Positions 38,066 to 58,887 of a DNA stretch of 64,000 nucleotides are shown here, in pieces. The notes below the pieces were generated by a model. It was not told where the DNA came from, did not search any database, and worked only from the letters and a program-made list of their open reading frames with translations. The stretch is from NCBI GenBank assembly GCA_017433295.1, contig JAFRHL010000006.1:62001-126000 (forward strand), given 5' to 3'. The stretch comes from Eubacterium sp. (GTDB taxonomy: Bacteria > Bacillota > Clostridia > Lachnospirales > Lachnospiraceae). The translations under genes and the position numbers were made by a program. Position 1 is the stretch's first letter, and each line of letters starts with the position of its first letter.

Positions 38066-38089
38066 TTAAATAGTTTTTGAAGAGATAAA

Positions 38090-38128
38090 GGGTGCAGAAG
38101 GTATATAATCCTCCTGCACCCTGTCTTT
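38090..38128 (+). terminator. Intrinsic terminator after glgP
   Basis: GGGTGCAG (38090-38097) and CTGCACCC (38114-38121), extended inward with one mismatch, followed by a T-rich tail. Confidence 0.85.
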
Positions 38129-38286
38129 TTTATCCTTTGCCGGGACGCGCAGGCAGGTTTTGAATTGTCAAAAACTCTGATCTATAGCAAAACTCTTCCC
38201 TTTCCTATATGACTTTTCCACATCATGGAACAAAATAAGGCTTTCATTCCTTTTAATAATTGAATGATTATTCATTACTTGGACAA

Positions 38287-38366
38287 CTGATACAAAAATC
38301 AGACATACTCTTTGTGCATCATTTCCGAAAAATAAAAAAATTTGCAAATTTTTGATAAAAATTTGC
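38287..38366. promoter_or_regulatory. Inverted repeats upstream of the corrinoid-protein gene
   Basis: A perfect inverted repeat has arms GCAAATTTTT (38344-38353) and AAAAATTTGC (38357-38366) separated by GAT; a smaller one, CTGAT/ATCAG, lies at 38287-38302. The 360-bp gap 38066-38427 is very AT-rich and otherwise holds only the glgP terminator; no cobalamin riboswitch was recognised. The large repeat lies 60 bp before the start codon and may be an operator or a terminator-like element. Confidence 0.4.
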
Positions 38367-38427
38367 TTTTTTTATAAAAAAAGATTAAAATATGAAAGAA
38401 GGATTTTTTTATCTGGGGGGTGCAAGA

Positions 38428-39123
38428 ATGGAAACAATAACAGACGAAATCAGGGATGCCCTGAAAAGAGGACAGGGAAAACGGGTTGCCAATCTTGTAA
38501 AGATGGCTCTCGATGAAGGGATTACTTCCCAGTCCATCGTGGAAGATGGTTTTCTTGCCGGTATGAGTCAGGTGGGAGATGTATTTCGCAGTGAGGAGGT
38601 CGGTGTCCCGGAGATTTTAAGTGTGACCAGAGCCCTTGATCAGGGTGTGGAGGCATTAAGAAGATACACAGGGGCCAGCGGGGTAAAAGATGTGGGCACT
38701 GTGGTCCTGGGGACCATGAAGGGCGATATGCATGATATCGGAAAGAATCTTGTAAAGATGATGATGGAGAGCAAAAATATCCACGTCATTGACCTGGGGG
38801 TCGATGTTTCTCCCGCCCGGTTTTATGAAGTTGCAACGGCAGCCCATGCCCAGATCGTTTGTATGAGCGGGATCCTTTCCCAGTCGGCCAGCGATATGAG
38901 AGCAGTCATAGAAGAATTTGAAGATAAGGGAGACCGGGACAATTTTTATTTTATGGCCGGGGGCTATTATATGGATGAGCTGAAGGCAGAAAAGATCGGG
39001 GCGGACTGTTATACGGAGGACGCCTGTGAATGTGCGGAAAAAGCCTATAAGTATCTGACAAGAAGAGAGAGAAAAAGAAGGAAGAACAAAGACAGACAGA
39101 TGTCAGATGGAGAACGGGCCTGA
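38428..39123 (+). CDS. Free-standing corrinoid (B12-binding) protein, MtaC-like
   Basis: About 231 residues. The N-terminal helical cap domain (about 1-80, GFLAGMSQVGDVFRSEEVGVPEIL) is followed by a Rossmann-like B12-binding domain with the base-off ligand motif DMHDIGKNLV (D-x-H-x-x-G) and later GILSQS and GG. The basic C-terminal tail (RRERKRRKNKDR) is unusual. MtaC/MttC-type proteins carry methyl groups for methyltransferases, but no methyltransferase is encoded nearby. The next genes are a PocR-domain kinase and a response regulator, so a sensory role for cobalamin is inferred. ATG 38428 behind GGGGGG is preferred over 38392. Confidence 0.85.
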   Translation: METITDEIRDALKRGQGKRVANLVKMALDEGITSQSIVEDGFLAGMSQVGDVFRSEEVGVPEILSVTRALDQGVEALRRYTGASGVKDVGTVVLGTMKGDMHDIGKNLVKMMMESKNIHVIDLGVDVSPARFYEVATAAHAQIVCMSGILSQSASDMRAVIEEFEDKGDRDNFYFMAGGYYMDELKAEKIGADCYTEDACECAEKAYKYLTRRERKRRKNKDRQMSDGERA

Positions 39124-39151
39124 AATATATTATTAGCCGGAGGGTAAAAGA

Positions 39152-40399
39152 TTGGCAGAAAAAAACATATTTATAAGAGATGTAATTGATGTCAAGGAAT
39201 TACAGACACTGCAGGACAACTGGGCAAAGGCCACGGATCTGGCCTTTATTACTGTGGATGTGAACGGAACTCCCATTACTGAGCAAAGTAATTTTACTCC
39301 CTTTTGTAAAAAACTCAGGAAAGTACCTGCTTTCCGGGAAAGGTGCTATCATTGTGATGCCTGCGGAGGGCGCAGGGCAAAAAAAACAGGCAGGGCATCC
39401 ATCTATATGTGCCATGCCGGCCTGGTGGACTATTCCATCCCCATCATGATCCACGGACAGCTGATAGGCTCCATCCAGTCGGGACAGGTGGTCAGTGACC
39501 ATATGGAGAAACTGAAGCCGGTGATGAAGCTTTCCGAGGAGTGGAAAGAGGATCCGGAGCTTGTGAAGCTTCATTCCCAGGTGACGGTAATGCCTCATGA
39601 GAAAATCGTAGCGGTAGCCCAGACTATCTGCGATAGTTATAATTATACTGTGGAAAAGCAGTATGCCAGTAAAATAGAAGCAGAGCTCAGGGAGAAGGAC
39701 CTGCGGCTTGTCAAAGAGGAGAAGCTCAGGATAGAGATGGAAAAGTCACTTCGTGACATTGAGCTCAAAGCACTCCACTATCAGATCAATCCTCATTTTC
39801 TTTTCAATGTACTCAATACCATAGGCCGCCTTGCTTTTTTTGAGAATGCCAAGATGACCGAGGATGTGGTATATGCTTTTTCCGATATGATGCGCTATAT
39901 TTTAAGAAAGAGCAACAACCCTCTGAGTACCCTGGGGGATGAAATGACCCATGTGCTCAATTATCTTAAGATCCATAAGATCAGGCTGGGGAGCCGTCTT
40001 CAGTATTCCATTGAAATCCCTGAGGAATATCGTGTGGTCCAGGTGCCCTTCTTATCGCTGACCACTATAGTGGAGAATTCCATTAAATACGCTGTGGAAA
40101 ACAGAACTTCCGGCGGAACTGTTCTGGTGACGTGTCATGCCCGTAAAGGGGATCTGTACATTGAGATCACCGATGACGGCGACGGGATGAGCAGGGAACA
40201 GATCCGCAGTCTTCTCCGGGGAGATGCTTTTAAAAACAAGGAGAGTAATTCCGTCGGCGTTTACAATATCAATTCCAGGCTGATCCATCATTTCGGACCG
40301 GAATATGCTTTGCAGATCGAGAGTGATAATGTACCGTCCGGGGGGACAAAGGTGATCATAAAAGTACCGTTACCGGAGAAAGGCAGTGCAGATGTATAA
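39152..40399 (+). CDS. PocR-domain sensor histidine kinase (LytS/YesM-type catalytic domain)
   Basis: 415 residues, TTG start behind CGGAGGG. The N-terminal PocR ligand-binding domain (about 8-175) has the Cys-rich signature FCKKLRK...CYHCDACGG...YMCHAGLVDYSIPI. A short coiled linker (about 180-215) precedes the His_kinase domain with the phosphoacceptor His in HYQINPHFLFNVLNT and a HATPase (IVENSIKY, DDGDGM). No membrane helix, so it senses a cytoplasmic ligand; in Salmonella the PocR domain responds to 1,2-propanediol. It overlaps the response regulator gene and is the partner kinase of it. Confidence 0.9.
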   Translation: MAEKNIFIRDVIDVKELQTLQDNWAKATDLAFITVDVNGTPITEQSNFTPFCKKLRKVPAFRERCYHCDACGGRRAKKTGRASIYMCHAGLVDYSIPIMIHGQLIGSIQSGQVVSDHMEKLKPVMKLSEEWKEDPELVKLHSQVTVMPHEKIVAVAQTICDSYNYTVEKQYASKIEAELREKDLRLVKEEKLRIEMEKSLRDIELKALHYQINPHFLFNVLNTIGRLAFFENAKMTEDVVYAFSDMMRYILRKSNNPLSTLGDEMTHVLNYLKIHKIRLGSRLQYSIEIPEEYRVVQVPFLSLTTIVENSIKYAVENRTSGGTVLVTCHARKGDLYIEITDDGDGMSREQIRSLLRGDAFKNKESNSVGVYNINSRLIHHFGPEYALQIESDNVPSGGTKVIIKVPLPEKGSADV

Positions 40400-41459
40400 G
40401 ATTTTAATTGTTGAAGATGAAGAACTTGAAAGGACCTCCATTAAGATCTTTCTGGAGGAGAATCTGCCTGAGGCTGAGATCGTGGGCGAGGCCAGAAGCG
40501 GTTTTGAAGCCCTGGAAATGATTGAGAACCGCGAGATCAATCTGATGCTGGTGGATATTAATATTCCGGGGGTTGATGGTCTCGAGGTGATCAGGCATGC
40601 AAGAAAAAAACTGCCTGATGCGGTGATCATCATTACAACTGCATATGATGATTTTAATGTCGCCCACAGGGCCATTAAATTGAAAGTGGATGACTTTCTT
40701 CTGAAACCGATACGGAAGGAAGTCCTCCTGGATTCGGTCAAATCCTTTGCCTCCAGGGTGGGAGGAGACAGAAAAACAGATAAGAGTAATAAATTGTTGG
40801 CCAAGCTGGAGGTGGAATTAAGAAAATGCTCTTACAAAGCCTCTGTAGACATTTTAAGAGAGTACATAGACCAGTTATATTTAGAGTATCATGATGTAAA
40901 TGTAATATCCAAACGTCTGCAGGAGCTGGCAAAGCTGATCCTGAAAATTGCCGAAGAGCTCGGAGTCGGAGATACCAATGAACTGGTAGTCCAGATGGAG
41001 AAGCTCAAGATCAAGTATCTGCTTTATAATAATAAGCATGATGCTTATAATGAAGTGATCAAGATGGTGGATATCGTTTTTGACAGGATGAACCTTAAGG
41101 GCAAGCTGTCCGACGGCGGCATGAAATCCGTGATCGACTATATCGAACGGAACCTGAAACGGGGCATCAGCCTGGAAGACGTGGCCAATCATGTGAATAT
41201 CAGCACCTATTACCTGAGCAAAATTTTCAAGAAGGAGATGGGGGTCAACTTCATCACCTATGTCACCGACCGGAAGATGGATCTGGCAAAGGAAATGCTG
41301 ATCAATACCGATATACCGGTATTAAACATTGCCTTGGATCTGGCGTATAATGAAGCCAACTACTTCAGCAAGGCCTTCAAGAAGAAGACCGGCCTTACGC
41401 CGTCTGAGTATAGAGAAAAATACAGAGTTAGAAAGGAGGAAACAAATGAAACGTTTTAA
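40392..41459 (+). CDS. Response regulator with AraC-type DNA-binding domain (YesN-like)
   Basis: About 355 residues. The N-terminal receiver domain has the phospho-Asp in LMLVDINIPG (about 54) and Lys in FLLKPI (about 104). A helical linker (about 125-245) leads to a C-terminal AraC HTH (SLEDVANHVNISTYYLSKIF and LDLAYNEANYFSKAFKKKTG). It probably activates the pdu promoters in response to the PocR kinase. ATG 40392 (GAGAAAGG before it) is preferred over GTG 40386. It overlaps the kinase gene by 8 nt and pduQ by 14 nt. Confidence 0.92.
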   Translation: MYKILIVEDEELERTSIKIFLEENLPEAEIVGEARSGFEALEMIENREINLMLVDINIPGVDGLEVIRHARKKLPDAVIIITTAYDDFNVAHRAIKLKVDDFLLKPIRKEVLLDSVKSFASRVGGDRKTDKSNKLLAKLEVELRKCSYKASVDILREYIDQLYLEYHDVNVISKRLQELAKLILKIAEELGVGDTNELVVQMEKLKIKYLLYNNKHDAYNEVIKMVDIVFDRMNLKGKLSDGGMKSVIDYIERNLKRGISLEDVANHVNISTYYLSKIFKKEMGVNFITYVTDRKMDLAKEMLINTDIPVLNIALDLAYNEANYFSKAFKKKTGLTPSEYREKYRVRKEETNETF

Positions 41460-42600
41460 GCTTTCCACTGAAGTATTATTCAGTGAGAATGCGCTGGATG
41501 CGCTGCTGGACATCAAAGATGTCAATGCGGTCCTGATCACGGATCAGTTCATGGTGGACTCTGGCATGGCTGACATGATCTTAAAGAAGCTTCGCTACTG
41601 CAATAAAGTTTCCGTATTCAGTGATGTGATTCCGGATCCGCCCATGGACCTGATCGAGAAAGGAATTTCCTTCCTGGAGGACAAGGACTGTGATGTGGTC
41701 ATTGCCCTGGGAGGAGGATCTTCCATCGATGCGGCGAAAGCCATTGTTTATATGACAAAAGAGCTGCACAGGGCCAAACATGGTGAGGATGGAAAGAGGC
41801 TGAAGCTGATCGCTCTTCCCACCACCAGCGGAACAGGATCCGAGGTGACTCAGTTTGCCGTGGTTACCGATTCGGAAACGGGCAAAAAGATTCCTCTCAT
41901 CGATGAGAGCCTGATGCCTGACCTGGCGATCCTTGATCCGGAACTGGTAAAATCCGCACCGCCCTTTATCACAGCGGATACGGGCATGGATGTGATCACC
42001 CATGCTCTGGAAGCCTATGTTTCTGAGACTGCCAGCGACTGTTCCGACTGTCTGGCGGAGAAAGCCTGTGAGCTGGCCTTTGAGTACCTGCCCAGAGCTT
42101 ACCGCAACGGTTTTGACATTAAGGCAAGGGACAAGATGCACAGGGCGTCCTGTCTGGCAGGCATGTCTTTTTCTCTGGTGAACCTGGGTTTAAATCACGG
42201 TATCGCCCATGCTCTTGGAGCAATCTTCCACATACCCCATGGCCGGGCCAACGGTCTGGTGCTGCCCCATGTTATTGCCTTTAATGCAGATGTGAAGCGG
42301 GAAGGCGCAAAGCACAGCAACGATTCGGCAAAGAAGTACCAGAAGATGGCAAGAATCGTCGGTCTGCCCGCCGCCACCCCTAAAGTAGGTGTGGCCAATC
42401 TGATCGCCGAGATCGTGAGGCTGTTAAAGTATATGGACCGTCCCATGTGCATTACGGAGTGCGGAATTTCCCTGGAGGAATTTGAGGCAAATCGTGAGGA
42501 GATCATCAAAAGGGCCCTGGCTGATGCCTGTACCGTGGCGAACCCCAGAAAGGTCTCTGCGGATGATATCAGTAAGATTCTGGACGAGATTGCAAAATAG
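41446..42600 (+). CDS. pduQ: Iron-containing alcohol dehydrogenase, propanol dehydrogenase PduQ
   Basis: 384 residues, group III Fe-ADH. GGGSSIDAAKAI binds NAD(H); LPTTSGTGSEVT and the metal ligands (Asp in TADTGMDVITHALEAYVS, His in LNHGIAHALGA and IPHGRANGLVLPH) are present. In microcompartments it reduces propionaldehyde to propanol and regenerates NAD+ for PduP. AAAGGAGG precedes the ATG at 41446. It is cotranscribed with the regulators rather than with the shell genes. Confidence 0.9.
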   Translation: MKRFKLSTEVLFSENALDALLDIKDVNAVLITDQFMVDSGMADMILKKLRYCNKVSVFSDVIPDPPMDLIEKGISFLEDKDCDVVIALGGGSSIDAAKAIVYMTKELHRAKHGEDGKRLKLIALPTTSGTGSEVTQFAVVTDSETGKKIPLIDESLMPDLAILDPELVKSAPPFITADTGMDVITHALEAYVSETASDCSDCLAEKACELAFEYLPRAYRNGFDIKARDKMHRASCLAGMSFSLVNLGLNHGIAHALGAIFHIPHGRANGLVLPHVIAFNADVKREGAKHSNDSAKKYQKMARIVGLPAATPKVGVANLIAEIVRLLKYMDRPMCITECGISLEEFEANREEIIKRALADACTVANPRKVSADDISKILDEIAK

Positions 42601-42650
42601 TTGACATAAAGGGCGTAAATTTTATGCCGGCTTATAAAAATTATGTCAAC
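42600..42650. promoter_or_regulatory. Long inverted repeat between pduQ and pduA
   Basis: Arms GTTGACATAA (42600-42609) and TTATGTCAAC (42641-42650) are a perfect 10-bp repeat. An inner hairpin GGCGTAAA/TTTATGCC lies between. It starts at the last base of pduQ and is about 100 bp before the shell operon's -10. It can be an operator for the AraC-type regulator or a weak terminator. Confidence 0.45.
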
Positions 42651-42707
42651 AAAGTATCATGAAAGAGATTTGAGAAATCCAATTCTCTGCAATGAAAAAC
42701 TAAAATT

Positions 42708-42750
42708 TATAGCATATGGGCAAGTAATTTTGTGAATATTGCTATATAAT
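42708..42750 (+). promoter_or_regulatory. Candidate activated promoter of the pduA operon
   Basis: A perfect TATAAT (42745-42750) has no recognisable -35, as expected of an activator-dependent promoter. The repeat TATAGCA (42708-42714) / TGCTATA (42740-42746) overlaps the -10. Confidence 0.5.
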
Positions 42751-42779
42751 CAAATTATCCTGTAAGTCAACCGACGACA

Positions 42780-42800: not shown

Positions 42801-42825
42801 AACTAACTTTTTAAGGAGGTCAATT

Positions 42826-43098
42826 ATGCAGAAAGAAGCTTTAGGAATGATTGAAACCAAAGGTTTGGTTGGCGCTATTGAAGCAGCCGATTCCATGGTT
42901 AAATCAGCAAATGTTACACTGGTTGGATACGAGAAAATCGGTTCCGGTTTTGTAACAGTTATGGTTCGCGGAGATGTAGGAGCTGTTAAGGCTTCCGTTG
43001 ACGCCGGAACAGTTGCAGCTGATAAGGTTGGTACTGTTGTTTCCAGTCATGTCATCCCAAGACCACATACAGACGTAGAGAAGATCTTACCACAATAA
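42826..43098 (+). CDS. pduA: Microcompartment shell protein, hexameric BMC-H (PduA/PduJ type)
   Basis: 90 residues, one BMC domain: [40 protein letters not shown] and the end SSHVIPRPH. The pore loop KIGSG keeps the Ser found in the propanediol-permeable PduA. It forms hexamers that tile the shell. AAGGAGG precedes the ATG. It is the only plain BMC-H of the operon, so it probably plays both PduA and PduJ roles. Confidence 0.95.
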
Positions 43099-43145
43099 GC
43101 CTTAAACCTTGTCTGATGATCAATTATTAATGGAGGTATTATTCA

Positions 43146-43973
43146 ATGAAAGACGAAATGATGGCTAAAATCATGGACGAAGTTATGAAGAAAATGGGTG
43201 GAGCGCAGGCTGAGAGCAATTTCGCTAACGACACCACAATCCAGGCTCCGACTCCACAGGGCATCAACGAAGACCTTTGCGGATTAACTGAGTATGTTGG
43301 AACAGCTATGGGACATACCATCGGTCTGGTTATCGCTAACCTTGACTACAGTGTTCATGAAATGTTAAAGATCGATCCGAAGTATCGTTCCATCGGTATC
43401 GTTGCTGACCGTGTTGGTGCAGGTCCCCAGATCTTCGCAGCTGACGAGGCTGTAAAAGCTACTAACACAGAAGCAGTTATGATTGAGTGCCCGAGAGATA
43501 CAGAGGGTGGCGCAGGACATGGATGCCTGGTTGTTTTCGGTGCTGAGGATGTTTCTGATGCAAGAAGAGCTGTTGAGGTTTGCTTAAGCTTTGTTGAGAA
43601 ACAGTTCGGTGATGTATACGGCAACTCCGCAGGACATCTTGAGTTCCAGTACACAGCACGTGCTTCCTACTGCTTAGAGAAGGCCTTCGGCGCTGTTGTA
43701 GGTAAGGCATTCGGTATCACCGTAGGTGCTCCGTCCGGTATCGGTATCGTATTAGCAGATACAGCTGCCAAGACCGCTACAATTGATCCTATCGCTATCG
43801 CAACACCCGGCAATGGCGGAACATCTTTCTCCAACGAGGTTAACTTCTTCTTCTCAGGAGATTCAGGAGCAGTTAGACAGGCTATCATCGGCGCAAGAGA
43901 AGTTGGTAAGCAGTTACTGAAGGCTCTGGCTCCGGACGAACCGCTTGAGTCCAGTACTGTACCGTACATCTAA
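43146..43973 (+). CDS. pduB: Microcompartment shell protein PduB, trimeric tandem-BMC
   Basis: 275 residues. A short N-terminal helix (MKDEMMAKIMDEVMKKMGG) and a linker precede two BMC domains (about 45-150 and 155-265), PduB/EtuB family: YVGTAMGHTIGLVIANLDY, AGPQIFAADEAVKA, EKAFGAVVGKAFGI. It forms trimers with a central pore; the N-terminal helix in Salmonella PduB links cargo to shell. GGAGG precedes the ATG. Confidence 0.95.
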   Translation: MKDEMMAKIMDEVMKKMGGAQAESNFANDTTIQAPTPQGINEDLCGLTEYVGTAMGHTIGLVIANLDYSVHEMLKIDPKYRSIGIVADRVGAGPQIFAADEAVKATNTEAVMIECPRDTEGGAGHGCLVVFGAEDVSDARRAVEVCLSFVEKQFGDVYGNSAGHLEFQYTARASYCLEKAFGAVVGKAFGITVGAPSGIGIVLADTAAKTATIDPIAIATPGNGGTSFSNEVNFFFSGDSGAVRQAIIGAREVGKQLLKALAPDEPLESSTVPYI

Positions 43974-44087: not shown

Positions 44088-44121
44088 ACACAGAATTGAG
44101 AATTTGAGAGGTGTTGAGACC

Positions 44122-45786
44122 GTGAGAAGTAAACGTTTTGAATATTTAGATCAAAGACCTGTTAATCAGGACGGCTATGCATTAGATTGGCCAGAAGTTG
44201 GATTTATTGCGATGAACAGTCCCTTTGACCCGGTTCCATCTATTAAGATCGAGAACGGCGTGGTTACAGAGATGGATGGAAAGACAGCAGATCAGTTCGA
44301 TATGCTGGATGCTTTCATCGCTAAATATGCTATTAACCTTGATTTCGCAGAGGAAGCTATGGCTAAGGATTCTCTGGAAATCGCCCGTATGCTCGTCGAC
44401 ATCAATGTTAACAGAGCAGAATGCTTAAAATATACCACAGCAGTTACTCCTGCTAAGTTAGTTGAGATCGTTGGTAACCTGAACGTACTCGAGGTAATGA
44501 TGGGTATTACCAAGATGAGATGCAGGTTAAAACCCGCTAACCAGTGCCACGTAACAAACGTTAAAGATAACATGATCCAGATCGCAGCAGACGCCGCTGA
44601 GGCCGCTGTACGTGGATTCGCCGAGATGGAGACCACAGTAGGTATCGTTCGTTACGCTCCGTTCAACGCCCTGGCTATCATGCTTGGTGCTAACGTTGGA
44701 CGTCCTGGTATTTTAACACAGTGTGCTGTAGAGGAAGCTACAGAGCTTGACCTTGGTATGAGAGGTTACACCGCATATGCCGAGACAGTTTCCGTATACG
44801 GAACTGAGGACGTATTCATGGATGGTGATGATACTCCGTGGTCCAAGGCATTCCTTGCATCCTGCTACGCATCCCGTGGTGTTAAGATGAGATTCACATC
44901 CGGTACAGGTTCTGAGGTTCAGATGGGTATGGCAGAAGGAAAGTCCATGCTTTATCTTGAGGCCCGCTGCCTTGGTGTTACCCGTGGTGCCGGTGTTCAG
45001 GGAACCCAGAATGGTTCCGTATCCTGTGTTGGTGTACCCGCAGCCGTTCCTGGTGGTATCCGTGCCATCGCATGTGAGAACCTGATTGCAGGTATGCTTG
45101 ACCTTGAGAACGCATCCTCCAACGACCAGACATTTACACATTCTGATTTACGTAGAGTTGCACGTTCTATCCCGCAGTTCATTCCTGGCACAGATTATAT
45201 CTGCTCCGGATATTCTGCTACACCTAACTATGATAACATGTTCGCCGGCTCCAACTGGGATGCAGACGATTATGATGACTGGGTAGTAATCCAGCGTGAC
45301 CTTAAGGTTGACGCAGGTCTTGTACCCGCTACAGAAGAAGAAGTTGTTGCTGCTCGTAATAAAGCTGCAAGAGCTATTCAGGCTATCTTCCGTGAATTAG
45401 GATTACCTGAGATCACAGATGAAGAAGTTGAAGCCGGTACATATGCACGCGGTTCCCAGGATATGCCTGACCGTGACGTTGTTGCCGACTTGAAGGCTGC
45501 TACAGAGATGCTTGAAAGAGGCGTAACAGGTATTGACTTTGTTAAGGCTCTTTACAAAGGCGGATTCGAAGATGTTGCAGAGTCTGTATTCAACATTCAG
45601 AAGGCTAAGGTTGTTGGTGACTACTTACATACCGCTTCCATGCTTGATGACAAGTTCCATGTAATTTCTGCTGTTAACAGCCCGAACTGCTACGAAGGAC
45701 CGATGACCGGTTATCAGATCAGCCCAGAGCTCTGGGAGAAGCTGAGCAACATTCGTACAGCTGTTGACCCATCTAAGATCGATTAA
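44122..45786 (+). CDS. pduC: Propanediol dehydratase large subunit
   Basis: 554 residues, GTG start giving the family opening RSKRFEYLDQRPVNQDGYA; GAGAGGTG lies 8 nt upstream (the frame extends to TTG 44104). The alpha subunit is a TIM barrel that binds AdoCbl and substrate with K+/Ca2+: GFAEMETTVGIVRYAPFNALA, MRFTSGTGSEVQMG, EARCLGVTRGAGVQG. It dehydrates 1,2-propanediol to propionaldehyde. Glycerol dehydratase is closely similar; the surrounding pdu genes favour propanediol. Confidence 0.95.
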   Translation: MRSKRFEYLDQRPVNQDGYALDWPEVGFIAMNSPFDPVPSIKIENGVVTEMDGKTADQFDMLDAFIAKYAINLDFAEEAMAKDSLEIARMLVDINVNRAECLKYTTAVTPAKLVEIVGNLNVLEVMMGITKMRCRLKPANQCHVTNVKDNMIQIAADAAEAAVRGFAEMETTVGIVRYAPFNALAIMLGANVGRPGILTQCAVEEATELDLGMRGYTAYAETVSVYGTEDVFMDGDDTPWSKAFLASCYASRGVKMRFTSGTGSEVQMGMAEGKSMLYLEARCLGVTRGAGVQGTQNGSVSCVGVPAAVPGGIRAIACENLIAGMLDLENASSNDQTFTHSDLRRVARSIPQFIPGTDYICSGYSATPNYDNMFAGSNWDADDYDDWVVIQRDLKVDAGLVPATEEEVVAARNKAARAIQAIFRELGLPEITDEEVEAGTYARGSQDMPDRDVVADLKAATEMLERGVTGIDFVKALYKGGFEDVAESVFNIQKAKVVGDYLHTASMLDDKFHVISAVNSPNCYEGPMTGYQISPELWEKLSNIRTAVDPSKID

Positions 45787-45815
45787 TCTAAGTCTGTTAA
45801 GGAAGGTGAACTAGA

Positions 45816-46472
45816 ATGGCAATTGATGAAAAATTATTAAAGAGCGTTATCGCTGAAGTTCTTAAAGAAATGAACGCAATTTCTGATTCTGCTCCGGCAG
45901 CAGAAGGCGTTGTTTCCGAGTCCGAAGGCATGACCATTACTGAGATTGGCGATGCAGCAAAAGGTACCAATCCTAACGAAGTTGTTTTAGGTTTAGCTCC
46001 TGCTTTTGGCGCTTCCCAGACAAAGAACATCGTTGGTATCCCCCATGCGGACATCATCAAAGAAGTTATGGCCGGCCTTGAAGAGGAAGGTGTATCCTGC
46101 CGTATCGTTAAAGTTTACAGAACATCTGACGTATCCTTTATCGCTCACGACGCAGCAGAGTTATCCGGATCCGGCATCGGCATTGGCATCCAGTCCAAAG
46201 GTACAACTGTAATCCATCAGAAAGACCTTCCGCCGCTGTCCAACCTGGAATTATTCCCGCAGTGCCCGCTGATTGACCTTGATACATACAGAGCAATTGG
46301 AAAGAACGCCGCTAAATATGCTAAAGGCGAGTCCCCAAGCCCCGTACCGGTAAGAAATGATCAGATGGCTAGACCGAAGTACCAGGCTCTGTCCGCAGTT
46401 CTCCATATCAAAGAGACTGAGCATGCCGACAGAGATAAGGCTCCTAAGGCTCTTAAGGTAGAATTTAAATAA
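45816..46472 (+). CDS. pduD: Propanediol dehydratase medium subunit
   Basis: 218 residues. The N-terminal amphipathic helix [18 protein letters not shown] is followed by a linker and the beta-subunit Rossmann fold ([50 protein letters not shown]). It helps bind AdoCbl at the alpha-beta interface. The N-terminal helix matches those that target dehydratase to the shell. AAGGAAGGTG precedes the ATG. Confidence 0.95.
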
Positions 46473-46486
46473 TCGGAGGTGCAATC

Positions 46487-46990
46487 GTGAATCAGGAATT
46501 ATTAGTAAGACAGATTATGCAGGAAGTGCTTAAAAATATGCAGGGTGCTCAGGCATCTTCTCAGGCATGTGAATGCGAGAAGGTTACTGTTGCAGATTAC
46601 CCCATCGGAGAGAAAAAGCCTGAATTAATAAAGAGTGCGTCCGGAAAGTCCCTTGACGAACTGACACTTGAGGGAGTTATCAAAGGCGATTTAACCGCTA
46701 AGGATTTCCGTATCACAAAAGAGACTCTTGAGTTACAGGCTCAGGTTGCAGAGTCCGCAGGACGTGGATTCTTCGCAGTTAACTTAAGAAGAGCCGGTGA
46801 GCTTATTCCGGTTCCGGATGCTCGTCTTCTTGAGATCTACAATGCTCTCCGTCCCTATCGTTCAACCAAGGCAGAGCTTTATGCCATTGGTGATGAGTTA
46901 ATTAACCAGTACGGTGCTGTAGTTTCCGGTAACTTCGTTAAAGAAGCTGCTGATATCTATGAGAAACGTAATCGTCTGAAAAAAGCTTAA
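46487..46990 (+). CDS. pduE: Propanediol dehydratase small subunit
   Basis: 167 residues, GTG start behind CGGAGGTG. The N-terminal helix NQELLVRQIMQEVLKNMQ is encapsulation-peptide-like; the rest is the helical gamma subunit (KSLDELTLEGVIKGDLTAKDFRI is family-typical, as is RDGRGFFAVN-like SAGRGFFAVN and EIYNALRPYRST). It completes the alpha2-beta2-gamma2 holoenzyme. Confidence 0.95.
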   Translation: MNQELLVRQIMQEVLKNMQGAQASSQACECEKVTVADYPIGEKKPELIKSASGKSLDELTLEGVIKGDLTAKDFRITKETLELQAQVAESAGRGFFAVNLRRAGELIPVPDARLLEIYNALRPYRSTKAELYAIGDELINQYGAVVSGNFVKEAADIYEKRNRLKKA

Positions 46991-47009: not shown

Positions 47010-48833
47010 ATGAAAGTGAAATTAGTTGCGGGCGTTGATATTGGTAATGCGACAACCGAAAGCGCAATAGCCAGAATCGATGGAAAGCAGGTCACCTTTT
47101 TAGCCAGCGGTATCACAGATACCACCGGCATAAAAGGAACAAAGCAGAATATACACGGTGTGTTCAAATCATTAAAGACTGCTCTGGACAAGGCAGGACT
47201 TGATATTAAAGATCTGGATGAAGTTCGTGTAAATGAAGCTGCTCCTGTTATTGGTGACGTTGCCATGGAGACGATTACCGAAACTATTATCACAGAATCT
47301 ACTATGATTGGACACAATCCCAATACCCCTGGAGGTATTGGGATTGGTGTTGGTCTTTCCCACATGATCGACCAGCTCGATTCAGTTCCAAAGGGTACAG
47401 ATGTGATCGTAGTTGTACCGTCTAAGATTTCATTTGAGCTTGCTGCTAAGATGATCAATCTCTATAATAAAACACTCAACATTACAGGTGCCATTGTCCA
47501 GCGCGATGATGGCGTTTTAATTAACAACAGACTTGACCATAAGATTCCCATCGTTGATGAGGTCGGGATGGTGGATAAGGTGCCCATCGGCATGCTTACC
47601 GCTGTGGAGGTTGCGCCTGTGGGCGGAGTTGTTGAAGTTCTCTCCAATCCCTATGGTATTGCCACCTTATTCAAACTGTCATCCGATGAGACAAAACAGG
47701 TCGTTCCGATTGCCCGTGCATTGATCGGAAACCGGTCGGCGGTTGTTATTAAGACACCGGAAGGTGACGTAAAGGAAAGAAGGATCCCTGCAGGCTCCAT
47801 TGAGATCATCGGTAAAAAGAAAAAAGTTACCGTGGATGTAGATGAAGGCGCAGAGAGGATGATGGATGCGGTAAACAGCATTGATGTTATCGAGGATATT
47901 AAGGGAGAACCGGGAACCAATGCCGGCGGTATGCTGGAGAAGGTTCGTCAGGTAATGTCCAGGCTTACCGATCAGCATCCCAGAGATATCAAGATTCAGG
48001 ATCTTCTTGCTGTGGATACCTTTAATCCCCAGAAGGTTAAGGGGGGACTTGCCAACGAGTTCTCCTATGAGAGCGCGGTAGGTATCGCGGCCATGGTTAA
48101 GGCAGACCGTCTGCAAATGGAAATGATTGCAGAAGAGCTGACAGACCGTCTGGGTATTCCTGTATATGTTGGCGGCGTTGAGGCTGATATGGCCATTAAG
48201 GGAGCTTTAACTACACCGGGAACCAATGTTCCCCTTGCCATAGTGGATATGGGAGCAGGATCGACGGATGCTTCCATTAAGAACAGAAAAGGTGATGTTA
48301 AGCTGATACATCTGGCAGGAGCCGGTAACATGGTAACCTTGCTGATTCAATCAGAACTTGGTCTTGAGGATTTTGATTTGGCGGAGGATATTAAGAAGTA
48401 TCCCCTTGCAAAGGTGGAGAGTCTTTTCCATGTCCGCCATGAGGACGGAACCGTTCAGTTTTTTGAACAGCCTCTTGACCCCAATGTATTTGCAAAGGTA
48501 GTTCTGGTTAAGGGAGACGGCGAGTTTGTGCCGATCGAAGGCTTTAATAATGTCGAAAAGATCAAGAATGTCCGGACATCGGCAAAGAAGAAAGTATTTG
48601 TTACAAATGCACTTCGTTCTCTTGCAAAGGTCAGCCCGACCGGTAATGTAAGAGACATTGAATTTGTGGTATTGGTAGGAGGATCTGCTCTTGACTTTGA
48701 GATACCGACCCTTGTTACCGATGCGTTATCACAATATAATATAGTAGCTGGCCGGGGCAACATCCGCGGATGTGAAGGCCCCCGTAATGCAGTGGCGACA
48801 GGACTTGCATTGTCATGCGCTGAAGGAGAATGA
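47010..48833 (+). CDS. pduG: Diol dehydratase reactivase large subunit
   Basis: 607 residues with the Hsp70/actin-like ATPase fold of diol dehydratase reactivases: VAGVDIGNATTESAIA phosphate motif, GHNPNTPGGIGIGVG, VPLAIVDMGAGSTDASI second phosphate motif. With PduH it expels damaged cobalamin from PduCDE using ATP so that fresh AdoCbl can bind. GGAGGTAT precedes the ATG. It shares a 4-nt ATGA overlap with pduH. Confidence 0.95.
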   Translation: MKVKLVAGVDIGNATTESAIARIDGKQVTFLASGITDTTGIKGTKQNIHGVFKSLKTALDKAGLDIKDLDEVRVNEAAPVIGDVAMETITETIITESTMIGHNPNTPGGIGIGVGLSHMIDQLDSVPKGTDVIVVVPSKISFELAAKMINLYNKTLNITGAIVQRDDGVLINNRLDHKIPIVDEVGMVDKVPIGMLTAVEVAPVGGVVEVLSNPYGIATLFKLSSDETKQVVPIARALIGNRSAVVIKTPEGDVKERRIPAGSIEIIGKKKKVTVDVDEGAERMMDAVNSIDVIEDIKGEPGTNAGGMLEKVRQVMSRLTDQHPRDIKIQDLLAVDTFNPQKVKGGLANEFSYESAVGIAAMVKADRLQMEMIAEELTDRLGIPVYVGGVEADMAIKGALTTPGTNVPLAIVDMGAGSTDASIKNRKGDVKLIHLAGAGNMVTLLIQSELGLEDFDLAEDIKKYPLAKVESLFHVRHEDGTVQFFEQPLDPNVFAKVVLVKGDGEFVPIEGFNNVEKIKNVRTSAKKKVFVTNALRSLAKVSPTGNVRDIEFVVLVGGSALDFEIPTLVTDALSQYNIVAGRGNIRGCEGPRNAVATGLALSCAEGE

Positions 48834-49198
48834 GCATGGAAGGAAGGTTTTCAGACCAGAAAAACAGACCCAGTATCAAAGTTTTTTATGACTGCGATCA
48901 CCTTTCGGTTTCTGATTTTACAGGCGTTCTCCTCGGTATCGAGGAGGAAGGAATCCCCTATGATGTTCAGGAAGAGCACACGAGCGATGTCCTGGAACTC
49001 GCACATAAAGCCAGCTTGGATTCAAGATTAGGGGTGGGCGTTGGAATCAGCAAGGAAGGAATCGTTCTTCAATATGAAAAGCTTGACAAAGCGGCACCTC
49101 TTTTTAAGATTAAGTTATATCAGAAGGAACTGTTCAGAAATATCGGTGCGAATGCGGCAAGACTCGTTAAGAAGATGCCCTTTAAACCGCTGGATTAG
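48830..49198 (+). CDS. pduH: Diol dehydratase reactivase small subunit
   Basis: 122 residues. The fold resembles the dehydratase beta subunit: IKVFYDCDHL, GIEEEGIPYDVQE, GVGVGISKEGIVLQYEKL, NIGANAARLVKKMPF. It takes the place of the beta subunit during reactivation. It is translated with pduG through the ATGA overlap behind GAAGGAG. Confidence 0.92.
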   Translation: MSMEGRFSDQKNRPSIKVFYDCDHLSVSDFTGVLLGIEEEGIPYDVQEEHTSDVLELAHKASLDSRLGVGVGISKEGIVLQYEKLDKAAPLFKIKLYQKELFRNIGANAARLVKKMPFKPLD

Positions 49199-49234
49199 TT
49201 CCGGTATCAAAATATAGGTTAAGGAGGTGAAAAG

Positions 49235-50005
49235 GTGGCTGAGAAAGCAATTGGGTTTATCGAAACCTTTGGACTTACAGCAGCTATTGCGGCAGCAGAT
49301 GCAGCCTGCAAGTCTGCAAATGTTAAGTTGCTTGGTTATGAATACGCCAAAGGCAATGGAATGTGTACAGTGAAAGTCGAGGGAGATGTCGGCGCATGTA
49401 AGGCAGCGATCGCTGCGGGAAAACGTGCGGCTGAGATGGTACAGGGTACCCATCAGGGCACTAAGAGTGTACTGCTTAAAGCCCGTCCGGCAGATGCAAT
49501 CATTCCCAAGATGATCAAACACAGAGAAAATGTCGGCGGTGATATTGCCCTGGCAGAAGGATACCGTCCGAAAGGCGAGAGCCGTATGCCGGTCCTGGTT
49601 TCCCACTGGAAGCCGAAGGAAGAGCCAAAGGAAGAAGAAACTCCAATCACACTGACACCTGAACCGCCTGTAGTTGAAGATCTTAAAGAAGAGCCATCTG
49701 AACCTGCAGTAGAAGCTGAAAAGGCAGAGGAGGCTCCTGCAAATGAAGCTCCTGTGGAGGAGGCTCCGGCTGAGGAAGCTCCTTTAGAGGAAGCTCCGGC
49801 TGAGGAGACATCTGCAGAGGAAGCTCCGGCAGAAGCAACGGTCCCGGTTGAAGCTCCTGTGGCAGAGGAAACTGCCCCGGTTGAAGCTCCTGAAATCGAA
49901 GCGTCTGCAGAGGAAGAACCTGCTGGGGAGGCTCCTAAGAAAAAAACAACAGGAACCAGAAGAAGCGGAAGATCCAGAAAGAAAAAGAATCCGGACAAAG
50001 AATGA
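49235..50005 (+). CDS. pduK: BMC-H shell protein with long Glu-Ala-Pro tail and basic end (PduK-like)
   Basis: 256 residues, GTG start behind AAGGAGG. A BMC domain (about 1-90: AIGFIETFGLTAAIAAADAA, GYEYAKGNGMCTVKVEGDVG) is followed by a linker and about 100 residues of EAP-rich repeats (units such as EEAPAEEAP), ending in a Lys/Arg-rich tail (TTGTRRSGRSRKKKNPDKE). PduK of Salmonella has a BMC domain plus an Fe-S-type extension; this tail is different and lacks Cys. The acidic-repeat/basic-end design may bind cargo, other shells or DNA. PduK by position and domain order only. Confidence 0.78.
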   Translation: MAEKAIGFIETFGLTAAIAAADAACKSANVKLLGYEYAKGNGMCTVKVEGDVGACKAAIAAGKRAAEMVQGTHQGTKSVLLKARPADAIIPKMIKHRENVGGDIALAEGYRPKGESRMPVLVSHWKPKEEPKEEETPITLTPEPPVVEDLKEEPSEPAVEAEKAEEAPANEAPVEEAPAEEAPLEEAPAEETSAEEAPAEATVPVEAPVAEETAPVEAPEIEASAEEEPAGEAPKKKTTGTRRSGRSRKKKNPDKE

Positions 50006-50041
50006 TCCGGCATAATTCATAACGGATTTAAAGCTCGCTAA

Positions 50042-50069
50042 CAGACCAGACAGCTGTCTGTCTGGTCTG
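50042..50069 (+). other. Intercistronic hairpin between pduK and pduL
   Basis: CAGACCAGACAG (50042-50053) pairs perfectly with CTGTCTGGTCTG (50058-50069) around loop CTGT. The weak T tract suggests partial termination or a processing site inside the operon. Confidence 0.6.
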
Positions 50070-50092
50070 CATAAATAATTTTGGAGGAAATA

Positions 50093-50740
50093 ATGGGTAC
50101 ATCTAATCAGGACGTATTAGTTAAATTAATTACAAAGCTTGTTATGGAAGAGCTTTACGGGATGAGTACTCAGATTCCTATTGGTGTATCAAATAAACAT
50201 ATTCATCTGAGCAGGAAAGATATGGATGCTCTTTTTGGAGAGGGTTCAGAGCTCACACCCATTAAGGACCTTGGACAGCCCGGTCAGTATGCATGCGCAG
50301 AGACTGTAGCTGTGAAAGGCCCCAAAGGAGAGTTCGCCAGAGTCAGGGTCTTAGGACCTCTGAGGAAAGAGTCCCAGGTTGAGATCTCCAAAACAGATGC
50401 AAGAAGTATTGGAATTAAGGCTCCGATCCGTGAGTCGGGTGTTCTGGAAGGAACTCCCGGCGTGGAACTGGTAGGACCAAAAGGTTCTGTTATGCTCGAA
50501 AGAGGAGTGATCGTGGCTCTCCGTCATATCCATATGACTCCGGAGCAGGCTAAGCAATGGGGACTTAAGGATAAAGACATCGTTGATGTAAAAGTTAACG
50601 GTGGAGAGAGAGCAGGAGTTCTTGGTAATGTTATAGTAAGAGTTTCTGATAAATTTGCTCTTGAGATGCATGTAGATACCGATGAGGCAAATGCCTGCTG
50701 CCTCGACAATAATGATACAGTATCCATCATCAGAAAATGA
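50093..50740 (+). CDS. pduL: Phosphate propanoyltransferase PduL
   Basis: 215 residues. An N-terminal encapsulation-type helix (MGTSNQDVLVKLITKLVMEELYG region) precedes two PduL domains with zinc ligands in VSNKHIHLSRKD and ALRHIHMTPEQ. It converts propionyl-CoA to propionyl-phosphate and recycles CoA in the compartment. The frame extends to TTG 50081, but GGAGGAAAT precedes ATG 50093. Confidence 0.95.
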   Translation: MGTSNQDVLVKLITKLVMEELYGMSTQIPIGVSNKHIHLSRKDMDALFGEGSELTPIKDLGQPGQYACAETVAVKGPKGEFARVRVLGPLRKESQVEISKTDARSIGIKAPIRESGVLEGTPGVELVGPKGSVMLERGVIVALRHIHMTPEQAKQWGLKDKDIVDVKVNGGERAGVLGNVIVRVSDKFALEMHVDTDEANACCLDNNDTVSIIRK

Positions 50741-50811
50741 TTCGGGGATATTTATCATAAAACAACAGTTACAAACCGTTTGTTGGCGGTTTATAACATA
50801 AAGGGGATCTG

Positions 50812-51639
50812 ATGAACGATTATAATAACGTTTTAACAGGATTTTCTGAGCTGATCAAGAATGAAGAATACAGGCCCTATGAGGGTGAGCTCAAGCTGGG
50901 AGTTGACCTTGGAACGGCAAACATAGTTGTATCCGTGGTTGACGGGAATAATACTCCCATCGCCGGTGCTTCTTTTCCGTCTACTGTGGTAAGGGACGGT
51001 ATCGTGGTAGATTTCCTCGGTGCCTCCAGGGCAGTAAAGAATATGAAGTATAAGCTGGAAGAAATGATGGGTGTGGAATTCCACCAGGCAGCTACAGCGA
51101 TTCCCCCGGGAATCATCTCCGGTAACGTGAGAGTCATTTCCAATGTAGTCGAATCGGTGGGACTGGACGTCATCAATGTAATTGATGAACCGACAGCAGC
51201 CGCTACGGTGCTGGGCATAACCGACGGGGCTGTGGTGGACGTCGGCGGCGGTACCACAGGAATCAGTATACTAAAGAATGGCGAAGTTGTATTTACAGCG
51301 GATGAGCCTACCGGAGGAACCCACATGACACTGGTTCTTGCCGGAAGCCTCGGCTGTACATTCGAGGAAGCTGAAAGAATCAAAAAAGATCCGAAACAGG
51401 AGAGACTGGTATTTCCCGTTGTGAAACCTGTCATTGAGAAAATGGCGGCCATCGTGAAACGGTTCATAGAAGGATACGATGTGGATGTTATCTATGTTGT
51501 GGGCGGTGCCTGCAGCTTTGAGAAATTTGAGAGTATCTTTGAACATGATATCGGAATAAAGACGATCAAGCCAAAGGAACCATTGCTGGTAACACCCTTG
51601 GGAATTGCCATGAATTGCAATAAACAACAGGTGATGTAA
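50812..51639 (+). CDS. eutJ: EutJ-like Hsp70/actin-fold ATPase
   Basis: 275 residues. ASKHA ATPase fold: LGVDLGTANIVVSVVDG, GAVVDVGGGTTGISIL and YVVGGACSFEKF. EutJ of ethanolamine loci is proposed to be a chaperone or reactivation factor. Here it stands in a propanediol locus, where PduM is often found. Its start has AAAGGGG upstream. Its stop overlaps the ATG of the next gene. Confidence 0.88.
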   Translation: MNDYNNVLTGFSELIKNEEYRPYEGELKLGVDLGTANIVVSVVDGNNTPIAGASFPSTVVRDGIVVDFLGASRAVKNMKYKLEEMMGVEFHQAATAIPPGIISGNVRVISNVVESVGLDVINVIDEPTAAATVLGITDGAVVDVGGGTTGISILKNGEVVFTADEPTGGTHMTLVLAGSLGCTFEEAERIKKDPKQERLVFPVVKPVIEKMAAIVKRFIEGYDVDVIYVVGGACSFEKFESIFEHDIGIKTIKPKEPLLVTPLGIAMNCNKQQVM

Positions 51640-52505
51640 TGTTTATTAATGCAGATTTAGAGAATGCGCTGATGTCAACGATAATTGGATATGTTTCTGA
51701 TCAGATCGTTTTACGCTATATGGATGCCTGCAAGACAGCCACGGTACTGTTTTCAGGTGCCCTGATCGGATACGGGGAAGCTGTAAAAGCCTTAAAGGAG
51801 CTTAAGGATAATGGCTGGAAACTGACCGCTGTTTTATCCAGGGCTGCAGGGGAAGTACTTACAGAAGAGCGTATCAGAAACGATATTGATCCGGAAGCTG
51901 TTTTTGTTGAGGGCGCTCCGATTAATGGAAGACAGATTATTGATGATAATCAGTATGTTATCATCCCTGAGCTGACAATCAACACCGCTGCCAAGGTTGC
52001 GAATTGTATCAGTGATAATCTTCTGACGAATATGATCTCGAGAGCCATGGCAACCGGTAAGCCGGTGATAGCTTCTATTGACGGATGTTGTCCGGACAGT
52101 GAGATCAGAGCTAAGCTTGGTTTTAAGGTGACTGAAAGCTATAAAGCTCGAATGAGACGTAATCTGGAAGATCTTCAGAGTTATGGGATCGTATTGACAG
52201 TCAACTCTAATCTGTGCAGTAAAGTTACTAAGATATACGAATCCAGCTTCGATTTCTCCCGGGAGGACATTGAGAGAAAGGCCTCCGGCGGGAATATGCC
52301 AAAAGAGGACACAGCACCAGAGAAATGTGTTCTGAAAAGCCAGGAAGCAGGAGAAAGTATTGTAATTGATAAAAACGTGATCAGCAGGACCGACATCGCA
52401 AGATACTCCGGTTTAAGCCGTATCGTCGTGTCGAAAGGCACAGTTGTTACTGACCTTGCCAGTGACGAAGCGAGAAGACGCGGCATTGAGATCATCAGAG
52501 AGTAA
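51639..52505 (+). CDS. HFCD-type flavoprotein of the microcompartment locus
   Basis: 288 residues. The first 180 resemble the homo-oligomeric flavin-containing Cys decarboxylase family (PF02441): TVLFSGALIGYGEAVKALKEL, TAVLSRAAGEVLT, IIPELTINTAAKVANCISDNL. The C-terminal 100 residues are unassigned. Flavin binding is inferred. Such proteins occur in some Clostridia propanediol loci and might reduce corrinoid or handle electrons; no activity is established here. It is coupled to eutJ and lies 13 bp before pduN. Confidence 0.7.
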   Translation: MFINADLENALMSTIIGYVSDQIVLRYMDACKTATVLFSGALIGYGEAVKALKELKDNGWKLTAVLSRAAGEVLTEERIRNDIDPEAVFVEGAPINGRQIIDDNQYVIIPELTINTAAKVANCISDNLLTNMISRAMATGKPVIASIDGCCPDSEIRAKLGFKVTESYKARMRRNLEDLQSYGIVLTVNSNLCSKVTKIYESSFDFSREDIERKASGGNMPKEDTAPEKCVLKSQEAGESIVIDKNVISRTDIARYSGLSRIVVSKGTVVTDLASDEARRRGIEIIRE

Positions 52506-52518
52506 AGTAGGTGAAGAC

Positions 52519-52791
52519 ATGTATTTAGGTAAAGTAATTGGTACGGTAGTTTCTACCATCAAGGTTCCAAGCCTGACCGGCTGCAAGTTCCTGATCGTGG
52601 AGAAGATCAATCAGGACCTGACGGCCAAGAAGCAGACGGAGATCTGTGTAGATACAGTCGGAGCCGGGGATGGAGAGACTGTGATCGTAGTTGGAGGCAG
52701 CTCCGCCCGTATGGCGGGCGGCAACAAATCTCTTCCTACAGATGCCTCCATAGTAGGAATTGTGGATACCGTAGAAGTTTCACAATGCTAA
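52519..52791 (+). CDS. pduN: Microcompartment vertex protein PduN (BMC-P)
   Basis: 90 residues, EutN/CcmL family: MYLGKVIGTVVSTIKVPSL, DTVGAGDGETVIVVGGSSAR and VGIVDTVEV. It forms pentamers that cap the shell vertices. The frame extends upstream but the ATG at 52519 with AGTAGGTGA upstream fits the family start. Confidence 0.95.
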   Translation: MYLGKVIGTVVSTIKVPSLTGCKFLIVEKINQDLTAKKQTEICVDTVGAGDGETVIVVGGSSARMAGGNKSLPTDASIVGIVDTVEVSQC

Positions 52792-52803
52792 GGATGTGAG
52801 AAT

Positions 52804-53820
52804 ATGGCTAATATTTATACAAAAACCGGCGATAAAGGGACCACGGGACTTTACGGTGGCTCCAGAGTCGACAAGGACAGCCTGAATGTGGACGTATACG
52901 GTACCATAGATGAAGCAATTTCTTCTCTGGGAGTTGCTTATGCTCAAACTGAAAGTACCGATATAAAAGAGTACGTTCACCACATTCAGGAGAGAATGTT
53001 CATGGCCGGAGCAGAGTTCGCCAGTGACGAAAAAGGCATGAAGATGCTCAAGGATAAAATCAGTGACAAGGATATCTCCTATCTGGAGTCCATCATTGAC
53101 AAATCCACGGAAGTCAACGGCAGAATGACAAGCTTCGTGATTCCGGGTGTGAATCCTTCTTCTGCCTCACTGCACGTTGCAAGAACGATCGTGAGGAGGG
53201 CGGAAAGGAAGATCACCACACTTGCCAGAGAGATTCCGGTGAGGGAGGAATTAAAGAAGTATATTAACCGTCTATCCGATGCCTGTTATGCTCTTGCCCG
53301 TCTGGAAGAGGCCAGGGCTCAGGAGCAGGAGATCGAGGAGCTGAAGGAGCAGGTACGTAAGGTCGTCAGTGAGATGACAGGGTGCGCAGACAAGGGAGTA
53401 TGTAAAATGGATATGTCTCTGAAAACTTTAAAACAGATGGCAGTATACGTTGAGGAAAAGGCCAATGAGATCGGAGTTCCCATGGTATTTTCTGCAGTAG
53501 ATGAAGGCGGAAATCTTCTCTACTTCCAGCGAATGGAGGGATCCCTGCTTATCAGCGTGAAGGTTTCTCAGGACAAGGCATATACCGCCGTATCCCTGAA
53601 GTGTCCTACCTCTGTTCTTGCAGATGTAACGAAACCCGGTGACAGCCTCTGGAGTCTGCATAATTCAGGGGACGGAAGGATCGTCTGCTTTGGTGGCGGA
53701 TATCCCATTGAGGTGGATGGAAAGGTAATTGGTGCAATTGGTGTGAGCGGTGGAACTGCTGAGGAAGACATGGCAGTTGCCACGTATGCATTAGAGAAAA
53801 TGCAAGGAGGAAGATCATAA
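52804..53820 (+). CDS. pduO: Two-domain corrinoid adenosyltransferase PduO
   Basis: 338 residues. The N-terminal PduO-type ATP:cob(I)alamin adenosyltransferase (about 1-185) has NIYTKTGDKGTTGLYGGSRV and RRAERKITTL with the ATP/cobalamin Arg/Glu pattern (SDACYALAR). The C-terminal GlcG/HbpS-like domain (about 200-338) ends in GAIGVSGGTAEEDM. It makes AdoCbl for PduCDE. It is followed by pduP with TAATG overlap. Confidence 0.94.
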   Translation: MANIYTKTGDKGTTGLYGGSRVDKDSLNVDVYGTIDEAISSLGVAYAQTESTDIKEYVHHIQERMFMAGAEFASDEKGMKMLKDKISDKDISYLESIIDKSTEVNGRMTSFVIPGVNPSSASLHVARTIVRRAERKITTLAREIPVREELKKYINRLSDACYALARLEEARAQEQEIEELKEQVRKVVSEMTGCADKGVCKMDMSLKTLKQMAVYVEEKANEIGVPMVFSAVDEGGNLLYFQRMEGSLLISVKVSQDKAYTAVSLKCPTSVLADVTKPGDSLWSLHNSGDGRIVCFGGGYPIEVDGKVIGAIGVSGGTAEEDMAVATYALEKMQGGRS

Positions 53821-55226: not shown

Positions 55227-55243
55227 TTAAGAGGTGAGTTTAA

Positions 55244-56572: not shown

Positions 56573-56589
56573 AGGATGGTGTTTACACA

Positions 56590-58871: not shown

Positions 58872-58887
58872 AGCCCCTTCCTTCTTT

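Follow-up and report, generated by a model that had tools for sequence, protein, structure and literature searches.

A free-standing corrinoid protein encoded beside a PocR-domain two-component system, a candidate B12 input at a propanediol microcompartment locus of Lachnospiraceae

The corrinoid protein locus

The DNA analysed here (the window) is a stretch of 64,000 nucleotides from Eubacterium sp. (Lachnospiraceae; assembly GCA_017433295.1, contig JAFRHL010000006.1, positions 62,001 to 126,000). Its genome spans 2.9 Mb in 56 contigs, is 91% complete and belongs to a genus that, in the contig collection of the Genome Taxonomy Database (GTDB), also holds Anaerobutyricum hallii DSM 3353. Between glgP and a propanediol utilisation (pdu) microcompartment cluster, all on the + strand, stands a run of four genes that encode a corrinoid protein (CP), a PocR-domain histidine kinase, an AraC-type response regulator and a PduQ-type alcohol dehydrogenase. 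This anatomy is confirmed and, within one lineage, well conserved; it suggests that CP may have been recruited as a B12-sensing accessory of the kinase and regulator. The four genes are as follows.

38428..39123, + strand: free-standing CP of 231 amino acids, with four-helix-cap and Rossmann B12 domains (Pfam) and a basic tail
39152..40399, + strand: soluble PocR-domain histidine kinase of 415 amino acids (Pfam), whose orthologue adjoins every CP of the clade described below
40392..41459, + strand: AraC-type response regulator (Pfam Response_reg and HTH_18)
41446..42600, + strand: pduQ-type iron alcohol dehydrogenase, the last gene of the presumed CP operon

Pfam and the coordinates bear out the arrangement given in an earlier note on this DNA, in which CP, PocR kinase, AraC regulator and pduQ follow one another with short gaps or overlaps: 28 nt separate CP from the kinase gene, the kinase and regulator genes overlap by 8 nt (14 nt counting from an upstream GTG), and regulator and pduQ overlap by 14 nt. 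The kinase gene starts with TTG, and its product contains PocR (2.2e-46), His_kinase and HATPase_c domains and no apparent membrane helix (the highest 19-residue Kyte-Doolittle mean is 1.21). A B12-dependent diol dehydratase is clustered with shell genes and the PocR domain is part of a two-component histidine kinase, as in PDU1D-type loci, where the same pdu cluster is accompanied by a PocR-domain two-component system (Axen 2014, PMC4207490; statements taken from the cited papers refer to the parts of their texts that were available). The two-component pair is thus already known and CP is the new part; the word 'corrinoid' does not occur in the main text of that paper.

Conservation of the CP-kinase-regulator triplet

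Conservation of the triplet, which the earlier note had proposed as a check, is clear: CP, PocR kinase and regulator occur together in all 17 loci that hold a CP of this clade, namely those of 16 of the 24 genomes of the genus and that of G175 from another genus. Because the same neighbours recur in 17/17 loci, they are there by more than chance. A scan of GTDB contigs gave ten loci at 67-86% identity, from A. hallii DSM 3353 and its relatives, all ten with the order CP-kinase-regulator-pduQ. Ten loci that are contigs of the genus were counted once (L004 is G255, L005 G251, L006 G272, L007 G260, L008 G250, L009 G262, L010 G271, L011 G252, L012 G261 and L013 G265). A kinase orthologue directly adjoins CP in 16/16 CP-bearing genomes of the genus; in G257 and G270 there are kinase fragments cut by the contig end, where CP cannot be judged. 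Among 250 genomes of the family, CP was found outside the genus only in G175 (49% identity), with the whole arrangement included, and the next matches are at 46% identity or less.

CP also co-occurs with the dehydratase. The pduC gene is present in 11 of the 24 genus genomes. Ten of them carry CP as well; in the remaining one, G256, the sequence of the contig begins inside the regulator gene. The 99%-complete G259 lacks both a CP orthologue and pduC, and its kinase match is at 24% only. This co-occurrence would suit a CP that serves as a cobalamin reservoir or chaperone, supplies adenosylcobalamin (AdoCbl) to PduCDE together with PduO, PduS and PduGH, and owes its place in the regulatory operon to history; the cobalamin-binding residues are kept, and the basic tail might serve to bind a partner in the compartment. 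We regard this role as fairly unlikely, since CP adjoins the kinase gene in 17/17 loci rather than pduCDE, pduGH or pduO, has a conserved promoter of its own separate from that of the compartment operon, and has no match in 19 other pduC loci.

Separation from methyltransferase partners

One blast rule with a 6-kb radius was applied to the 17 clade loci, four of which lie on contigs that end less than 6 kb from CP (L007, L013, L077 and L078), and to 40 other corrinoid-protein loci, a non-random part of the family-search matches to which some genomes contribute two loci. A URO-D, pterin-binding or RACo gene was found within 6 kb in none of the 17 clade loci and in 35 of the 40 others; a PocR kinase, conversely, in 17/17 and 0/40. 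The comparison loci consist of 19 from among the best family-search matches, two from the same genus (L093 and L108) and 19 picked partly for long open frames; L187 was dropped as a repeat of L062, and L181 was scored as lacking a methyltransferase under the blast rule, though a weak fused pterin-binding match is present. Among the long open frames searched, no fusion of a corrinoid domain with a kinase was found; the fusions seen instead join a corrinoid protein to URO-D (L171) or to a pterin-binding domain (L172, L181 and L188).

The earlier statement that no methyltransferase lies nearby therefore holds at this locus; the genome does carry one URO-D-family gene and one RACo gene, which overlap, on another contig (C14). 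There, at L074:2440-4927 (- strand), the URO-D-family gene overlaps a short RACo gene, with no corrinoid protein gene beside them; the RACo may serve an 826-residue MetH-like protein, whose length seems insufficient for the usual reactivation domain. Three B12-binding-domain matches were found in the window genome: this MetH-like protein, a radical-SAM-type protein, whose homologue carries a Radical_SAM domain, and CP, the first two identified by our own reading.

With an unaccompanied URO-D/RACo pair, CP as one of three B12-binding matches in the genome and similar parts united in the mec dichloromethane cassette, CP could still be a methyl carrier whose methyltransferase and reactivase are encoded elsewhere, or a relict of a methyltransferase cassette. 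We consider this quite improbable. URO-D matches occur in 11 of the 24 genus genomes and relatives of the window genome's own URO-D in nine, with no match in the CP-bearing genomes G250, G262 and G272 (98, 92 and 99% complete). RACo is present in 21 of 24 genomes, including the CP-less, 99%-complete G259, and may serve MetH. MTTB, searched in the window genome only, had no match there. A methyltransferase co-conserved with CP, which the earlier note had named as grounds against a sensor, was accordingly not found in the genus for URO-D (MtaB, MtmB and MtbB were not searched). Residues fixed only in the CP clade speak against a decaying relict.

Sequence features of the corrinoid protein

CP contains the Pfam domains B12-binding_2 and B12-binding and the motif DMHDIGKN, of the DxHxxG type. 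Its earlier description as MtaC-like was right as to a corrinoid protein with this motif, but the likeness to MtaC is loose: the best NCBIfam models are of the MtgC/MtbC types (1e-42 to 3e-33), with MtaC lower (6e-19), and CP falls below the cut-off of all 12 models listed (146 of 370 bits for MtgC, 130 of 215 for pyl_corrinoid and 125 of 350 for MtbC). The nearest solved chain is 1y80; 7xcn, 3ezx and 4jgi are also among the nearest. In a tree of 38 sequences the clade CPs are monophyletic with support of 100/100 and a stem of 1.19 changes per site; L062 and L093 form long branches of unsure placement in this tree.

Residues and tails were compared between 16 full-length clade members, leaving out the partial CP of L013, and 22 other corrinoid proteins. 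H102, S147, G178 and G179 are invariant in 38/38 sequences, and, mapped by eye through the AerR paper (PMC9144470) and an alignment with MetH, are taken to be the cobalamin lower-ligand and tail-binding residues. A presumed cap pair is retained in the clade, with Phe53 in 16/16 and residue 60 as Val in 14 and Ile in two. The adjoining residue 59 is Gly in all clade members but G175 (15 of 16), where it is Glu, whereas 21 of the 22 others have Phe or Tyr there; Cys194 and Cys202 (each 16/16) and the change of Ala180 to Tyr (14/16) are likewise specific to the clade. The unusual basic tail remarked on in the earlier note is a constant feature, found in 16/16 full-length members: the net charge of the last 26 residues, rich in Lys and Arg, is +2 to +10 in the clade and -6 to +3 in the 22 others.

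Compared with methyltransferase corrinoid proteins of the MtgC/MtbC type, CP thus has the same domains, length, DxHDxGKN motif and Ser and Gly-Gly positions, but forms a separate clade without URO-D, pterin-binding or RACo genes nearby, has Gly in place of the aromatic residue next to the cap, carries two extra invariant Cys and a basic tail, and lies below all the NCBIfam cut-offs listed. This pattern is consistent with continued corrinoid binding, probably with a changed handling of the upper face and new contacts at the surface.

The pairing of a helical cap with a Rossmann B12 domain is also used in regulation, by AerR/PpaA and CarH. AerR, a protein in its own right that works via a partner, is a precedent for a free-standing B12-binding co-regulator; it has Trp94 at the cap position that faces the upper ligand (PMC9144470), where CP has Phe53 in 16/16, an equivalence drawn by eye. 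CP also lacks a MerR domain and has a histidine kinase gene as its neighbour. CarH/LitR regulators carry a MerR-type DNA-binding domain. A CarH-like protein was rejected as an identity for CP, in whose 231 residues Pfam finds only the two B12 domains and no MerR.

Promoters and the search for a riboswitch

Two conserved promoters and a candidate regulator site can be placed at the locus.

38363..38391, + strand: sigma-A-like promoter of the CP operon, TTGCTT-17-TAAAAT, identified by conservation only, with 36 nt from its -10 to the CP start
42645..42661, + strand: conserved block upstream of the pduA promoter, a candidate response-regulator site
42740..42750, + strand: promoter of the pduA operon, an extended -10 that lacks a good -35 and lies 75 nt ahead of pduA

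The element TTGCTT-17-TA(A/G)AAT precedes CP in 14 of 15 loci examined and is absent in G175; its distance from the start is 32-44 nt in 12 of the 14, 92 nt in L077 and 6 nt in L075, where the start is unsure. Among 13 pduQ-pduA intergenic regions the upstream block is identical in nine and its core GTATCA is present in all, and all 13 loci have the extended -10 of pduA and no good -35, one with TAC in place of TGC. A generic scan for promoter consensus lists neither the CP nor the pduA promoter. The arrangement suggests that the promoter of the sensors is basal and that of the compartment operon dependent on an activator. The A. woodii regulator binds upstream of its own kinase gene and likewise upstream of pduA (PMC7593272). 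A motif shared by the CP and pduA promoters was also considered and rejected, as the only words in common are AT-rich octamers and one nonamer.

As the earlier note had stated, the locus has no detectable cobalamin riboswitch: none was found in the window at gathering scores, none at E<=5 in 37900-43200 and none in ten stretches from relatives. A hidden riboswitch was rejected on these empty searches and on spacing, since 36 nt (CP) and 75 nt (pduA) between -10 and start leave little room for one. The use of this absence as an argument for sensing by CP did not hold up, because a cobalamin riboswitch was equally absent from 15/15 other Lachnospiraceae pduC loci searched (7 + 8), with a cobalamin model run without a positive control; we have therefore dropped it as a sign that CP replaces one.

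PocR kinases without a corrinoid protein

The window genome provides a natural control on contig C14.

G000 contig C14, L191:2316-4937 and L074:12236-14494, - strand: second PocR-kinase-like/AraC pair and glycyl-radical dehydratase-like locus

The second kinase-like gene is a 26% match that spans both the PocR and the kinase parts, and it is adjoined by what we read as an AraC-type regulator, by metK, by an activase and by an 873-residue glycyl radical enzyme. A search with 561 residues of this enzyme gave 9rco, the B12-independent glycerol dehydratase 1r8w and the diol dehydratase 5i2a as its nearest solved relatives. No CP is present beside this pair. That one genome holds a PocR-kinase-like pair which lacks CP and adjoins a B12-independent dehydratase-like gene fits a B12 input at the CP locus.

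The glycyl radical enzyme has an internal segment at about residues 618-682 with an amphipathic stretch that, by eye, resembles a microcompartment targeting peptide, and the enzyme could ride in the pdu compartment.

A wider search of 397 family genomes (E<=1e-45) found eight more distant PocR-kinases, 27-35% identical, all in genomes without a pduC match. The 13-18 kb fetched around each contain no CP match; glycyl radical enzymes are present in two of these stretches and shell genes in five.

Evolutionary rates

Rates were compared across 12 loci (11 without G175). CP evolves at the rate of the kinase, about twice that of the regulator, pduQ and glgP. Given pduQ and glgP, the partial correlation of CP with the kinase is 0.40-0.46 (permutation P 0.0005) and that with the regulator 0.54-0.57. 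The higher value for the regulator would favour a CP whose target, reached for instance through its basic tail, is the regulator, the regulator's DNA or an RNA and not the kinase; the tail is present in 16/16 clade members, and AerR acts on a DNA-binding regulator (PMC9144470). The direct neighbour of CP is nevertheless the kinase gene, and no convincing motif is common to the CP and pduA upstream regions. Action on the regulator appears unlikely; it and the reservoir or chaperone role are both live rivals.

Proposed role of the corrinoid protein

The best reading, to which we give a probability of roughly 0.45, is that a methyl-carrier-type corrinoid protein was recruited as a B12-state input to the PocR kinase. 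CP would have parted from its methyltransferases and become an accessory of the kinase-regulator pair, made together with the kinase from their own promoter. It is predicted to bind its corrinoid base-off/His-on, and the loaded and unloaded forms would affect kinase activity differently. The PocR domain would read the diol and CP the usable B12, and the presence of both would switch on the activator-dependent pduA promoter.

Several features of the DNA point this way: the conserved triplet, the absence of the usual partners nearby, the retained cobalamin-binding residues, the clade-specific changes and the separate conserved promoters. From them we infer cobalamin binding by CP, the form bound, its contact with the kinase and the direction of the effect. 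The proposal of the earlier note, that CP reports the cobalamin state to the kinase, is thus favoured by triplet conservation and by the CP-less, B12-independent control on C14, and gains little from the lack of a riboswitch.

A number of observations weigh against this recruitment. Of the 40 other corrinoid-protein loci, 15 also have some PocR-domain gene nearby, the single one of these genes that was scanned being a PocR-AraC activator, and the mec cassette pairs a PocR-kinase and a corrinoid protein with methyltransferases (PMC9768040); adjacency of CP and kinase alone is therefore weak evidence. The triplet is seen in two genera only. Once the regulator is also controlled for, the rate correlation of CP with the kinase is gone (r 0.02-0.15, P 0.2-0.45). 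In 19 other pduC loci of the family (from 19 of 24 other pduC genomes, with pduC 60-64% identical), no stretch contains a CP or PocR-domain match; given also the 15 loci without a riboswitch, B12 gating by either device is no general need. In A. woodii the kinase gene follows a 399-bp intergenic region (PMC7593272), where at our locus CP precedes it, so that the PocR pair there seems to work without CP. Finally, E. hallii makes its own cobalamin (PMC4871866).

The mec cassette bears further on the origin of the CP locus. It lists MecA, the PocR-kinase, next to MecB, the corrinoid protein, and includes a receiver protein, all of which resembles the present arrangement; it differs in having several methyltransferases and a corrinoid protein that is taken as catalytic (PMC9768040). 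The CP clade may descend from a mec-like cassette.

The proposed logic itself has precedents. EutR requires both ethanolamine and AdoCbl, and EutV/W works with an AdoCbl riboswitch, so that a microcompartment operon responds to substrate and B12 together (PMC5821096). There B12 is read by the activator itself or by RNA, whereas the candidate here is a protein, with no riboswitch found. No description of a corrinoid protein as a B12 input to such a kinase was found in the literature searched, a scope that excludes subscription papers and supplements; the available text of the E. hallii paper (PMC4871866) contains none of the words 'regulator', 'corrinoid' and 'histidine'.

A B12-gated two-component system might further decide between the AdoCbl-dependent dehydratase in its microcompartment and the glycyl-radical dehydratase under the CP-less PocR kinase, an extension that is possible but doubtful. 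In other Lachnospiraceae (L136, L138, L139 and L144), about 9 kb or less separates glycyl-radical dehydratase-like genes from B12-dependent pduCDE clusters, with both routes side by side.

The compartment cluster and neighbouring genes

The genes downstream of pduQ are listed below; names other than pduC are labels given from sequence and position.

42826..43973, + strand: pduA- and pduB-type shell genes (our labels), open frames whose order is kept in relatives
44104..46990, + strand: pduC, pduD and pduE, the B12-dependent diol dehydratase (pduC by PF02286; D and E by position and conservation)
47010..57141, + strand: the rest of the pdu cluster, labelled G, H, K, L, EutJ-like, N, O, P, S and T, open frames with blast conservation in G175 and G253

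In the PduK-like shell protein (window 49235-50005), a long Glu/Pro/Ala linker of acidic character is combined with a basic tail at the C terminus that resembles the tail of CP in kind. Beyond the cluster, two tandem S-methyl-5-thioribose-kinase-like genes (57639-58931 and 58891-60150, both on the - strand; 259 and 255 of 275 bits for TIGR01767) adjoin PduU/EutS- and PduV/EutP-like genes, and perhaps salvage 5-deoxyribose out of spent AdoCbl; in A. woodii a methylthioribose kinase gene likewise adjoins a microcompartment gene (PMC7593272).

Significance

How bacteria short of B12 avoid building a costly compartment has been worked out for ethanolamine, through EutR and through riboswitch RNA, and, in the sources available, not for PDU1D-type propanediol loci. 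If the proposed role of CP is right, A. hallii and its relatives, gut bacteria that turn propanediol into propionate, would have a third answer to this problem, a protein that feeds B12 status into a two-component system, and their case would show an enzyme subunit turning into a sensor.

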